Source: Humibacillus xanthopallidus (GTDB lineage Bacteria > Actinomycetota > Actinomycetes > Actinomycetales > Dermatophilaceae). From it: a stretch of DNA of 64,000 bases. The notes under the pieces are model-generated. The model saw nothing but the letters and a program-made list of their open reading frames with translations, ran no database searches and had not been told where the DNA came from. The translations under genes and the position numbers were made by a program. The stretch lies in contig NZ_VFPM01000002.1 in the NCBI RefSeq assembly GCF_006716675.1, positions 186,001-250,000 on the forward strand. Reading direction: 5' to 3'. Of the stretch, positions 5,381 to 57,443 are shown piece by piece (position 1 is the stretch's first letter; each line of letters opens with the position of its first letter).

Positions 5381-6463
5381 TCAGATGTCCAAATGGACAG
5401 GTCCGGCGGCAGCATTGACGCAGGTCTGGATGAGCTCGCCTTCGTCGCCGTGCACCTCGCCGGTGCGCAGGTCGCGCACCTTGCCGGCGACGAGCGGGGT
5501 GAGGCAGCTGCGGCAGATGCCCATGCGGCATCCGCTCGGCATCACCACCCCGCACCCCTCGCCGGCGTCAAGGAGGGAGACGTCGCCGCCCACCTCCACT
5601 TCCTTGTCGGACTTCTCGAACGTCACGAGGCCGCCTTCTCCGCCCGTGCCCGGGAGCAGGGCGGGAGCGAAACGCTCGATCGTGAGGTTCTCGTGTGTGT
5701 CGTCGTGGCCGTCGCGCAGCCACAGCTCCGTTGCCGCGTCGAGGAACTCGGCCGGCCCGCAGGCGTATGCCGCCCGGTCGCGCCAGTCGGGGCAGAGCGT
5801 CTCGAGGTCGGTGGCGTCGCTGAGGTCGAGACGCCGGGCGGGTGCGTCGGTGCCGGAGTCGCGGGTGAACCAGTGCTTGACGGTGAGGCCGGGGAACTGG
5901 TCTGCGAGCTCGAGCAGCTCGTCGTGGAAGAGGGCATCGGCAGGAGTGCGGGCCGAGTGGATGAGCACGACGTCGGCGTCAGGCCGGCGCGGCACGAGCG
6001 TGCGGATCATCGACATGACGGGGGTGAGGCCGCTGCCGGCGGTCAGCATGAGCAGGGGTCGCGGGTGCTCGGGCAGCGTGAAGTCGCCCTGCGGCGTGTC
6101 GAGGAAGAGGATGTCGCCGGTCTTGGTGTCACGGGCGAGGGCCGTCGAGACGACGCCGATGGCGGTGACGGTGATCGCGGGATCGTGACCGGCGGCGGCC
6201 GACAGGGAGTAGCTGCGCCAGTGGCGCACGCCGTCGATCTCGACGCCGACGCGGGCCCACTGTCCAGCGGCGTGCGGATTCCAGCCGCGACCCGGGCGGA
6301 AGTGGATGGTCGTCGAGTCGGGGGTCTCCCGCACGACCTTCGTCACGACGCCACGCAGCTGCCGCGACGACGACAGCGGGTTGATCAGGCCCAGCACGTC
6401 CTCAGGGGCCAGCGGGGTCGTCAGGATCGACGCCATACGCCGGAGCACTCTGATCTGGGCCAT
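5381..6463 (-). CDS. Ferredoxin reductase with C-terminal 2Fe-2S domain (desaturase electron donor)
   Basis: The 360 residues comprise an FAD-binding domain (RxYS motif as RSYSLS, about residues 90-95), an NAD(P)-binding domain (TAGSGLTPVMSM) and a C-terminal plant-type 2Fe-2S domain with cysteines in GCRMGICRSC and a distal cysteine. This is the oxidoreductase that feeds membrane desaturases. ATG 6463 (MAQIRVL) is preferred; an upstream ATG at 6496 would add eleven residues. The gene is divergent from the PucR-type regulator, with a dyad-rich AT-rich region between them. Confidence 0.9.
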   Translation of the reverse strand: MAQIRVLRRMASILTTPLAPEDVLGLINPLSSSRQLRGVVTKVVRETPDSTTIHFRPGRGWNPHAAGQWARVGVEIDGVRHWRSYSLSAAAGHDPAITVTAIGVVSTALARDTKTGDILFLDTPQGDFTLPEHPRPLLMLTAGSGLTPVMSMIRTLVPRRPDADVVLIHSARTPADALFHDELLELADQFPGLTVKHWFTRDSGTDAPARRLDLSDATDLETLCPDWRDRAAYACGPAEFLDAATELWLRDGHDDTHENLTIERFAPALLPGTGGEGGLVTFEKSDKEVEVGGDVSLLDAGEGCGVVMPSGCRMGICRSCLTPLVAGKVRDLRTGEVHGDEGELIQTCVNAAAGPVHLDI

Positions 6464-6563: not shown

Positions 6564-7778
6564 TTGGTCCAGACCCCATCAGACCCGCCATGGTTGTATC
6601 TCCCTGCCGAAATCAGCGCCGCGCTCCGCCCGGTCGTGCGTGACATCGTCGAGGCGATCATCGAGGGCATCCCGCGCGACGTGCCCGTCTATGCGATGCC
6701 GATGGAGGGCCGCTTCGGCCAAGGCGTTCGGCAGGGCGTCACCGTGGCCCTGCACCGCTTCCTCGACCTGCCGGGCACCCGCCTCGAGGCCCTCTCGCCC
6801 GACGGCAAGTGGATCTACGAGAGCCTCGGCCGCGGAGAGGTGCGCTCGGGGCGCAGTCTCGAGTCGCTGCTCGCCGCCTACCGCTACGGCGCGCGCGTCA
6901 CCTTCCGGGCGATCTCACGCCTCGTCGACGTCTCCCAGATGCCGCCCGACGTGCTGCTCGCCCTGGGGGAGTCGCTCTTCGCCTACATCGACGAGATCTC
7001 GGCGGCGAGCGCCCAGGGCTACGCGCAGGAGCAGTCGGAGCGAGCGGGGGAGCAGCAGCGGCTGCGGGCCGAGCTGCTCGAGATGCTGCTTCGCGGGGAC
7101 TCGAGCGACGGGGGACCCGCGCGCCTGGCCGCCGCGGTCGGCTGGACGCTGCCGGAGTCGGTCCTCGTGGCGCTCGTGCCCTTCCCGCACGTCGAGGGGC
7201 TTCGCGCAGCTCTCGGACCCGATGCGCTGGTGGCCGAGCGCGGCACCGACGTCGTCGTCGTCCTCCCCGCCACCTCGACCACCCGTCGCCGTCGCCAGCT
7301 CGACCGGGCGCTCGCCGGCCGCCGCGCCGTCGTCGGGCCGTCGCGGCCCTGGCAGCAGGCGGGGGAGTCGCTCCAGCTCGCCACCTCGGCTGGTGCCCAC
7401 GGCATCGGCCGGCTCGGCCACGACGCCGACGGGGCAGGGGGTGTCAGGCCCGGGGATGCCGGGTCGACGGTCTGGGTGGAGGACCACCTCGCCGAGCTCG
7501 TCGTGCGCGCCGAGCCGCTGGCGACCGACGACCTGGCCCGGCGGCGCCTGGCCCCGCTCGAGGGGCTGCGGCCGCCCGTGCGTGCCCGGCTCACCGAGAC
7601 CCTGCTGTCGTGGCTACGTCACCAGGGGCAGCGGGCGCCGATCGCCGACGAGCTCTTCGTGCACCAGCAGACGGTCGGCTACCGGGTGGCCCAGCTCAAG
7701 CAGATCTTCGGCGACGACCTCGACGACCCTGAGGTGCGCTTCGAGCTCGAGCTCGTCCTGCGCGCCGGCCACCGCTGA
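6564..7778 (+). CDS. PucR-family transcriptional regulator
   Basis: This is a protein of about 404 residues whose last 60 residues (ETLLSWLRHQGQRAPIADEL onward) form the PucR C-terminal helix-turn-helix (HTH_30), with the recognition segment HQQTVGYRVAQLKQIFG. The N-terminal half is a sensory region of the type found in actinobacterial lipid and CdaR/PucR regulators. The start is taken as TTG 6564 because CGGGAG lies eight bases upstream and no ATG in this frame is close. It is divergent from the desaturase/reductase operon, so control of membrane unsaturation is the natural inference. Confidence 0.82.
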   Translation: MVQTPSDPPWLYLPAEISAALRPVVRDIVEAIIEGIPRDVPVYAMPMEGRFGQGVRQGVTVALHRFLDLPGTRLEALSPDGKWIYESLGRGEVRSGRSLESLLAAYRYGARVTFRAISRLVDVSQMPPDVLLALGESLFAYIDEISAASAQGYAQEQSERAGEQQRLRAELLEMLLRGDSSDGGPARLAAAVGWTLPESVLVALVPFPHVEGLRAALGPDALVAERGTDVVVVLPATSTTRRRRQLDRALAGRRAVVGPSRPWQQAGESLQLATSAGAHGIGRLGHDADGAGGVRPGDAGSTVWVEDHLAELVVRAEPLATDDLARRRLAPLEGLRPPVRARLTETLLSWLRHQGQRAPIADELFVHQQTVGYRVAQLKQIFGDDLDDPEVRFELELVLRAGHR

Positions 7779-7815
7779 GCCGCACCACGAGCGCGCGACA
7801 CCACCACATCCACCA

Positions 7816-8187
7816 GTCGAGTGCTCATTTCTCGACAGGTGCGTGTGTGGGGAACTGGGCACTCGACGGGTTCCTCTGGTCGAGTGCTCATTTTCCGGCG
7901 GGTGCCGGTGTGGGGAACTGGGCACTCGTCGGGTTCCTCTGGTCGAGTGCTCATTTTCCGGCGGGTGCCGGTGTGGGGAACTGGGCACTCGTCGGGTTCC
8001 TGTGGTCGAGTGCTCATTTCTCGGCGGGTGGGTGTGTGGGGAACTGGGCACTCGAGGTGTCCCTCTGGTCGAGTGCTCACTTTTCCGGCGGGTGCGTGTG
8101 TGGGGAACTGGGCACTCGACGGGTTCCTCTGGTCGAGTGCTCATTCTTCCGACGGGTGAGTGTGTGGGGAACTGGGCACTCGACGGT
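7816..8187. repeat. Six tandem copies of a 63-bp repeat
   Basis: Units begin at 7816, 7879, 7942, 8005, 8068 and 8132. The period is 63 bases, except that unit 5 has one extra base. Each unit starts GTCGAGTGCTCA, carries a GGCGGGTG core and the constant block GTGTGGGGAACTGG, and ends GCACTCGAC or a one-base variant, so most units can fold with a 9-bp stem. The array fills almost the whole 421-base gap between two convergent genes. Because 63 is a multiple of three, false open frames run through it on both strands. I see no gene in the gap. Confidence 0.95.
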
Positions 8188-8199
8188 GACGAGCCTCAG

Positions 8200-9159
8200 T
8201 CAGAGGAGGCGGATCGGGGAGCCGTCGAGGTAGGCGACGATGTCCTCGACGACCCCGGCGAAGAACGTCGCGTATACCTCCTCGGTGACGTAGCCGAGGT
8301 GCGGTGTGAGCAGCGTTCGCGGCGCGCTCCGGAGCGGGTGGTCGACCGGCAGCGGCTCCTCGTCGAACACGTCGAGCCCGACCCCGCCGAGCTGGCCTGC
8401 ATCGAGGGCGGCGAGCAGAGCGGCCTCGTCGATGATCGGCCCGCGCGAGGTGTTGACGAGCAGGGCGTCGCGCCGCATGAGGCCCAGCTCTCGGTGCGAG
8501 ATGAGTCCGCGGGTGCTCTCCCCGAGCACGAGGTGGATCGACACGACGTGCGAGGTGGCGAGCAGGTCATCGAGCCCGACGGCCCGGGCCCCAGCGGCTG
8601 CAGCCCGCTCGTCGGTGAGGTGGGGGCTCCAGGCGACGACGTCCATGCCGAAGGCCCGGCCGACGGTGGCCACCTGCGTGCCGAGGCGTCCGATTCCGAG
8701 CAGCCCGAGGGTGCGGCCGGCGAGGTCGGTGCCGACCGTCGTCTGCCAGCCACCCTCACGCACGGCGGTCGCCTCGGTCACGAGGTGCCGCGAAAGCCCG
8801 AGGATGAGCGCCCACGTGAGCTCGGCGGGGGCGGACGCGCGGCTCTCGGTGCCACAGACGGTGATACCCGCAGCTTCGGCCGCCGCGAGGTCGATGCTCG
8901 CGTTGCGACGGCCCGTCGTCACGAGGAGACGGAGGCCGGGCAGCCGGCCGAGGACGTCGGCGGTCAACGGGGTGCGCTCGCGCATGACCACGACGGCGTC
9001 GAAGCCCTCCAGACGCTCCACGAGCGCGTCGGGCTCACCGACGTGGTCGCGGAAGACCTCGACCGTGCACGGCTGCCCGGACGGCGGCGACGTCACGGGT
9101 GACCAGTCGGCGCTGGAGAGGGCCACGCCCTGGTAGTCGTCGAGCACCGCGATGCGCAT
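8200..9159 (-). CDS. D-2-hydroxyacid dehydrogenase (NAD-binding)
   Basis: These 319 residues fit the D-isomer-specific 2-hydroxyacid dehydrogenase family. The Rossmann motif is LGLLGIGRLGTQVA, the catalytic Arg lies in VNTSRGPIIDE, and the Glu/His pair lies in DVFDEEPLP and TPHLGY. It interconverts a 2-keto acid and a D-2-hydroxy acid; the substrate is not readable. ATG 9159 lies seven bases after TAGGGT (9167-9172, minus strand), so the mRNA is probably leaderless. The gene stands alone, separated from the tRNAs by a strong hairpin, and ends against the 63-bp array. Confidence 0.9.
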   Translation of the reverse strand: MRIAVLDDYQGVALSSADWSPVTSPPSGQPCTVEVFRDHVGEPDALVERLEGFDAVVVMRERTPLTADVLGRLPGLRLLVTTGRRNASIDLAAAEAAGITVCGTESRASAPAELTWALILGLSRHLVTEATAVREGGWQTTVGTDLAGRTLGLLGIGRLGTQVATVGRAFGMDVVAWSPHLTDERAAAAGARAVGLDDLLATSHVVSIHLVLGESTRGLISHRELGLMRRDALLVNTSRGPIIDEAALLAALDAGQLGGVGLDVFDEEPLPVDHPLRSAPRTLLTPHLGYVTEEVYATFFAGVVEDIVAYLDGSPIRLL

Positions 9160-39456: not shown

Positions 39457-39528
39457 ATCGAAAGAGCAGTCCGTCGGGGTTCGGCGTGAGGGTGACCTCA
39501 CGCTGAGCCGACGGACTGCTCTTTCGAT
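39457..39528. terminator. Long hairpin made of two inverted copies of a dispersed repeat
   Basis: ATCGAAAGAGCAGTCCGTCG (39457-39476, extended by one base) is perfectly inverted at 39508-39528, with an inner GGCGTGAG/CTCACGCT stem. It lies between convergent pit and pstB and should terminate both. The arms belong to the repeat family also found at 48216, 55506 and 57365. Confidence 0.75.
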
Positions 39529-48215: not shown

Positions 48216-48293
48216 ATCGAAAGAGCAATCCGTCGCCTCCCCCACCCATCGACAGAGCAGTTCGTCGCCGAGCGATCGACAGAGCAATCCGTC
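48216..48293. repeat. Three direct copies of the ATCGAAAGAGCA repeat family
   Basis: Copies at 48216-48235, 48248-48267 and 48275-48293 all run in the same direction, so no hairpin forms. They occupy the divergent spacer between mshD and the nucleotidase gene. Confidence 0.85.
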
Positions 48294-48446
48294 CGCCCGA
48301 GCAGCCGCGTCGCCGCGGGTCTTCCCGCCCGCATCCGCAGCGTCATCAGTCTTTTACCTGAGAACCCACATTTGGCACTCAGCCGCGGCTAGCCTCCCTA
48401 GGGATGCCCACGGGCACCGATCACCACCGATGAGCAAGGGGAAGAC

Positions 48447-55505: not shown

Positions 55506-55625
55506 CAATCGAAAGAGCAGTTCGTCGCCACCGGGATGCCCCGCGCGGTCCCGTCGAAAGGGCGACGAACTGCTCTTTCGATTGCCAGGGCCTGCAATCA
55601 GGCTGACGGAGTGCTCCTTCGATTG
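55506..55625. repeat. Inverted and direct copies of the ATCGAAAGAGCA repeat family
   Basis: CAATCGAAAGAGCAGTTCGT (55506-55525, extended to 55529) is perfectly inverted at 55561-55584. A degenerate third copy lies at 55605-55625. This and two GTATGCCG motifs (55457, 55687) fill the 315-base gap after the BKACE gene. Confidence 0.85.
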
Positions 55626-57364: not shown

Positions 57365-57443
57365 CCGACGAAGTGCTCCCTCGATTGCCCGGGCGCTCAC
57401 CGCGCGGGCGCCCTGACCTGCCGACGAAGTGCTCTTTCGATTG
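57365..57443. repeat. Two direct copies of the dispersed repeat family
   Basis: CCGACGAAGTGCTCCCTCGA (57365-57384) and CCGACGAAGTGCTCTTTCGA (57421-57440) run in the same direction (complement of the ATCGAAAGAGCA form), before the asparaginase gene. Confidence 0.85.

Follow-up and report, generated by a model that had tools for sequence, protein, structure and literature searches.

A probable REPIN/RAYT-like repeat system of unrelated parts in Humibacillus xanthopallidus: helically phased arrays of a 21-bp site and a putative AbiEi-like/Vsr-like nuclease

We have analyzed a tandem repeat array located in a 64,000-nucleotide stretch of the genome of the soil actinobacterium Humibacillus xanthopallidus (called here the window, always at its full length). 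The array belongs to a dispersed family of repeats that are, in our opinion, probably arrays of sites for an AbiEi-like/Vsr-like nuclease encoded by the same genome, i.e., a system similar to REPIN/RAYT but made of unrelated parts. The evidence comprises the sequence of the site, its helical phasing and dispersal, the bracketing of the nuclease-like gene by inward-pointing sites, the variation of motif with gene, their co-occurrence among genomes and the empty sites found in a sister species.

An earlier note on this DNA had described a six-copy array of 63-bp units at 7816-8187, filling a 421-base spacer between convergent genes. Both points were borne out. There are six tandem units (TRF, 90% matches) with start-to-start distances of 63, 63, 63, 63 and 64 bp, and the spacer runs from 7779 to 8199 (421 bp), with 37 bp between the stop of the PucR-like gene (7778) and the array. 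The combination GAGTGCTCA...TGGGCACTC occurs 6 times in the window, always inside the array, and zero times in 100 dinucleotide shuffles, which places the array far beyond chance. The end of the unit given in the note, GCACTCGAC, is found in three of the six units, while the other three deviate (GCACTCGTC in units 2 and 3, GCACTCGAG in unit 4), and the near identity claimed over the full length had to be corrected, conservation being higher at the unit ends than in the middle. Every unit consists of one 21-bp site in two inverted copies (Table 1), and consecutive site starts in the array are 31-32 bp apart, equivalent to three helical turns. We agree that this is not a CRISPR, which has identical repeats and unique spacers of constant length; here the 10-12 bp between sites are near identical.

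Table 1. Repeat features and flanking genes. Window position = L100 position + 3799; site starts are from the PWM scan; > and < denote site orientation.
Feature	Position	Strand	Remarks
Array of twelve 21-bp sites, alternating orientation	7816..8184	.	PWM scan of L100 and repeat finding
Unit 1	7816..7867	+	> GTCGAGTGCTCATTTCTCGAC 7816-7836; < GTCGAGTGCCCAGTTCCCCAC 7847-7867
Unit 2	7879..7930	+	sites 7879 >, 7910 <
Unit 3	7942..7993	+	sites 7942 >, 7973 <
Unit 4	8005..8056	+	sites 8005 >, 8036 <
Unit 5	8068..8120	+	sites 8068 >, 8100 <
Unit 6	8132..8184	+	sites 8132 > (weaker match), 8164 <
Left flanking gene, PucR-like regulator	6636..7778	+	name by inspection; context only
Right flanking gene, D-2-hydroxyacid dehydrogenase-like	8200..9159	-	name by inspection; context only
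Inverted pair, second motif ATCGAAAGAGCAGTCCG, in convergent spacer	39457..39528	.	same motif brackets L255
Direct tandem sites, second motif, ~32 and 27 bp apart	48216..48300	+	
Inverted pair, second motif	55508..55582	.	
Single site, second motif	57421..57441	-	
GCAACACACCGAG family loci	L198-L204, L194; G001 window-orthologous spacer L137		

The genome search for further units that the note had proposed was run, and showed that the family reaches beyond this locus, with sites recurring throughout the genome. In the window's own genome (G000, 5.27 Mb, 6 contigs) we found 65 matches to the unit, 74 to its palindromic core pattern (0 for the reversed control) and 140 strand-wise matches to a covariance model. 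All the clusters were taken with ~4 kb per side (L074-L119). Not the hairpin unit but an asymmetric site of 21 bp, GTCGAGTGCYCANTTYCCGAC, is the working element; the window array has 12 copies of it. Half-sites picked by GAGTGCYCANTT were preceded by an unselected C in 216/216 distinct contexts, and at positions preceding that C there was T in 209 and G in 195 of the 216. Since these unselected bases are conserved ahead of GAGTGCYCANTT, the conserved element must be the 21-bp asymmetric site; the invariance within the seed pattern arises by selection of half-sites and was left out of the evidence. A weight matrix (PWM) detected 267 sites in 53 clusters of G000, mostly 3'-intergenic; after one Markov shuffle of the same 415 kb the five best scores were 1.6 to 10.3, compared with a training minimum of 20. 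That all this is a neutral minisatellite is very improbable. The near-identical tandem units of the window would fit, as would a copy number that differs between loci, but a single 21-bp motif conserved at 53 loci whose spacers are unrelated would not, nor would the phase constraint and the association with a conserved gene described below. Slipped-strand variation, another option of the note, may account for how the 63-bp unit multiplied locally, but it does not explain a family spread over the whole genome.

Some particular clusters can be mentioned. Two of them, L079:10029-11189 and L092:3396-5453, lie inside called genes, for which no solved homologue was found, and the L079 array can be read in frame as the repeated peptide DECPLPDTPDRGELGTR. 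Two clusters near contig ends (G000:C2:2244-2341 and C4:471632-471729) have identical scores and spacings, perhaps reflecting a repeated region or an assembly break. Clusters are much denser at 0.87-1.8 Mb of contig C1 than on C3 or on C5, the contig with dnaA. In another genome, thirteen direct copies of its own site follow an exact 22-bp period (G017:C6:124134-124412). Phage and plasmid DNA gave no match to the repeats (0 and 1 site in IMG/VR), and no relative of the nuclease was found in viruses. An origin in phages or plasmids was rejected on these grounds, the only homologues there being remote ones on Arthrobacter plasmids.

The distances between neighbouring sites are 21-22, 31-33, 42-43 or 52-54 bp in all four orientation pairs (><, <>, >> and <<), i.e., multiples of one helical turn independently of relative orientation. 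With a single count for each locus and orientation, spacings within 1.5 bp of a multiple of 10.5 made up 121 of 132, when ~29% would be expected. The vector strength at 10.5 bp was 0.83 (n=132). When each of 46 loci contributed a single spacing it was 0.84, and the highest value among 100000 uniform draws was 0.49; other genomes gave a vector strength of 0.87 (n=71). The sequences of the gaps are unrelated from locus to locus, indicating that what is kept is the length of the spacing and not its sequence. This is what proteins sitting on one DNA face would require. A multi-site protein array, one of the options in the earlier note, is thus strongly supported by the orientation-independent phasing together with the inward sites around the gene of a putative DNA-binding nuclease.

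The same note had also considered a repeated small RNA or conserved hairpin, and this was unsupported. The arrays could form hairpins, as RNA or as cruciforms, that terminate transcription bidirectionally or stabilise mRNA ends, and in favour of this single units fold well in isolation (z -3.4 to -6.4) and are located at gene 3' ends; any inverted pair, though, would fold as well. The arms of >< pairs match at 16.47 of 21 positions versus 16.99 of 21 in shuffled arms and, being no more complementary than these, pairing is not what is conserved. Covariation in pair counts was nowhere above shuffles, and the N position agrees in only 5 of 45 loci versus 16.9 expected, so that identity there is disfavoured, avoidance of perfect palindromes being one possibility. 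Besides, clusters that are purely or mainly direct exist (purely direct in L074, L106 and L128), Rfam gave no match at the window array, no T tract follows the arrays, and hairpins would leave the phasing of direct neighbours unexplained. The covariance model was usable as a search tool, but with pairing unconserved we consider the hairpin explanation improbable.

A candidate gene for the protein was found outside the window. Inward-pointing sites flank a 338-aa gene at G000:C1:459876-460889 (L074), the only locus of G000 where a gene of interest, of kilobase size, has sites on either side. In L095 the gene between sites is ornithine cyclodeaminase-like by appearance and was taken as chance. 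The neighbours of the L074 gene are ABC-transporter-like and FdrA-like by inspection. Homologues exist in 157 of 188 genomes of the family. The closest are bracketed on both sides by direct arrays pointing inward, and orthologues and paralogues in other genera show the same layout, each with its own variant of the motif. A de novo k-mer search run without the G000 matrix recovered this layout at more distant homologues with different motifs. Anchored motif counts at 23 nuclease-gene loci gave sites nearly all inward with few wrong-way, commonly spaced by 22, 32, 42 or ~53 bp, the vector strength being lower here (0.57). When we asked for at least 2 shared inward 10-mers in each flank, a strict rule, 17 of 41 nuclease genes were positive versus 1 of 215 non-nuclease controls; 216 control genes had been taken and two were positive, one of them the L074 nuclease gene itself. 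The shorter homologues (301-321 aa) in other genera mostly have no arrays.

By sequence, the 338-aa protein has a putative AbiEi-like N-terminus and a Vsr/MTES_1575-like nuclease end. The similarity to AbiEi comes from PADLOC, whose models match in the N-terminal half (6.9e-6 for L221), and from a full-length profile alignment of 273 columns (E 1e-16) to a family with the Pfam domain AbiEi_4. The nuclease assignment of the C-terminal end is weak. In alignment A2, E193, D228 and E246 are invariant and H253 and D262 nearly so. Of 30 members, 9 gave weak matches, below cut-off (best 3e-5), to Pfam MTES_1575, which is a restriction-endonuclease domain of the Vsr type (PMC3710099), and 2 matched DUF559; the only PDB hint was 3r3p (E 0.41, not significant). 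The gene is under purifying selection (dN/dS 0.11-0.17). Its locus is common to G000, G001, G199 and G205, with one neighbouring gene also in G016; genomes of the Humibacillus and Terrabacter types have conserved it, as probably has G016, indicating that the gene itself is resident-like and does not jump. TnpA-REP has likewise been described as resident (PMC8266576).

The motif varies with the gene across genomes. Wherever both were read, the variant beside the gene was the dispersed one (GTGGCCA in G017, L224 versus L131/L132; GTGCCCA in G000 and G205). The pattern GTCGAGTGNNCANTT is abundant in nine genomes (254 sites in G000, 152 in G090, 145 in G017, 92 in G205, 83 in G199, 52 in G016, 51 in G203, 47 in G001 and 35 in G029), the other 31 having 0-5, and all 9 site-rich genomes have a nuclease homologue of at least 49% identity. 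Nine of the 12 searched genomes with a homologue at roughly 50% identity or more contain 35-254 sites, compared with 0-5 in the 28 others (Fisher p 8e-7, a value that overstates independence, these genomes being related). The remaining three (G198, G201 and G103) have homologues of ~50-55%, other motifs at the gene and no GTCGAGTGNNCANTT sites. G016 gave no match with the G000-based covariance model, and its 52 sites appeared once the variant of its own gene was allowed. Motif distance and protein distance were correlated (Mantel r 0.60, 0 of 10000); since both follow phylogeny, which could partly produce the correlation, this is no proof of coevolution.

G000 has a second homologue, L255, with ATCGAAAGAGCAGTTCG on both of its sides. 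The model predicts that its motif should be dispersed too, and the prediction was met in the window, where this second motif (ATCGAAAGAGCAG) is found at four places (Table 1).

The position of the clusters and their turnover bear on the main rival explanation, a host function for the arrays at convergent gene ends. Between convergent genes we found 33 of the 53 clusters, versus 18 of the 164 other spacers of at least 50 bp in the same DNA (Fisher p 6e-13), and many or most of those between tandem genes lie close against the upstream stop codon (genes were called with a simple codon-usage caller, so that single cases may be wrong). The protein could then be a chromosomal roadblock, an insulator or a nucleoid protein, or else a defence nuclease that is self-marked and retained on the DNA of the host, and the arrays would be kept in convergent spacers for their function and not as selfish copies. 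This placement, the strict helical phasing and the purifying selection on the gene all fit, but the preference for 3' ends also fits a simple tolerance of insertions, and the motif is missing from most genomes of the family. The comparison of relatives also speaks against it. We located the spacer orthologous to that of the window through the D-2-hydroxyacid dehydrogenase-like gene; it holds three sites in G205, none in the sister species G001 and none in G199, G203 and G029, the PucR-like gene adjoining the empty spacer as well. At the five spacers orthologous to those of L102-L106 the array is absent in G001 too, with flanks 87-96% identical. Other families are there instead: the G001 spacers at the window orthologue and at L271 hold an unrelated palindrome family, GCAACACACCGAG, and that of L273 an array of a related motif with a period of 32 bp. 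At the empty sites no target-site duplication was readable, as the spacers have diverged. We regard a host function as a rather unlikely explanation.

The GCAACACACCGAG family consists of ~70-bp imperfect palindromes present in 9 of 11 genomes searched. Its copies stand on both sides of an AbiEi_4-bearing nuclease homologue in several genera, here in G000, G017, G205 and G202; in G001 the copy is broken and in G199 it comes with a variant palindrome. A further motif, GGCGTATGCC / GTATGCCG, was seen in intergenic spacers (in the window at 5763, 17039, 26867, 51685 and 55685), in the loops of some units (L084, L091, L093, L094 and L096) and in the flanks of some nuclease homologues, with L211, L216 and L229 also among its places.

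The mechanism that we propose for the nuclease and its site arrays can be described as follows. By analogy with AbiEi (PMC7319586), each monomer would recognise one 21-bp site through its winged helix-turn-helix, monomers would load cooperatively along one face of the DNA, and the Vsr/MTES_1575-type PD-(D/E)XK end would act as the nuclease that cuts. The gene with its inward site arrays ([>>> gene <<<]) would represent the parent element, and the arrays scattered in 3' intergenic spacers its non-autonomous, gene-less relatives, most likely multiplied in trans by the nuclease. Local growth by tandem duplication would have come afterwards, the window array included. REP-type repeats for which no enzyme is known have long been puzzling, and if the proposal is true dispersed repeats would be coupled to a non-HUH nuclease via duplex sites and not hairpins. 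It would also suggest what an unannotated gene family, very common in actinobacteria, might be doing, and make many natural site-protein pairs available for specificity testing.

Several known systems can be compared with this one. DDE insertion sequences and MITEs are marked by terminal inverted repeats, a target-site duplication and a DDE transposase; the arrays have inverted ends, and no duplication was readable in the diverged spacers. The EDxHD/Vsr-like homing endonuclease I-Bth0305I, the structure behind the PDB hint, is a possible fold of the C-terminal domain, but an intron or intein context is absent here. AbiEi antitoxins are winged-helix monomers that bind 23-bp repeats, as inverted pairs or tandem series (PMC7319586); those sites lie within one promoter, while ours are at both gene ends and dispersed. 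Moreover, the protein described here has a nuclease end and is not paired with a DUF1814 toxin, and by inspection L074 has no adjacent AbiEii (DUF1814) toxin gene as Type IV AbiE systems do. The CGTC-tagged REPs are also extragenic palindromic repeats without a RAYT that form dimers and clusters at convergent 3' ends; they have been reported from five phyla, Actinobacteria not among them, and no dedicated enzyme or transposase has been reported (PMC3733652), whereas here the repeats bracket a gene.

The closest parallel is REP/REPIN-RAYT, the 'REPtron' (PMC3116915, PMC8266576, PMC2817692). Both have dispersed extragenic repeats of the 20-bp class, mostly in inverted doublets and in tandem clusters at 3' ends, an enzyme gene that is present once, stable in its locus and flanked by these repeats, and enzyme-specific repeat types, several per genome. 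The enzyme differs, being here an AbiEi-like and Vsr-like nuclease and not a Y1/HUH transposase: PF01797 found none in G000, with a positive E. coli control, and a RAYT was therefore rejected as the enzyme. The site differs too; it is asymmetric, read by sequence and not as a hairpin, in any orientation but in helical phase, and the GTAG tag is absent from its consensus. The system works like REPIN/RAYT yet lacks its defining HUH transposase, conserved hairpin and GTAG tag, and in the open-access literature, to which our search was confined, we found no description of such a system. For these reasons we see even chances that it represents a class of its own, unrelated to RAYTs, in which an AbiEi-like winged-helix/Vsr-like nuclease is bracketed by arrays of its own asymmetric site, inward-pointing and in helical phase, and accompanied by dispersed gene-less derivatives, in several motif families across the Dermatophilaceae, the distantly homologous gene with the ~70-bp palindromes being a second branch.
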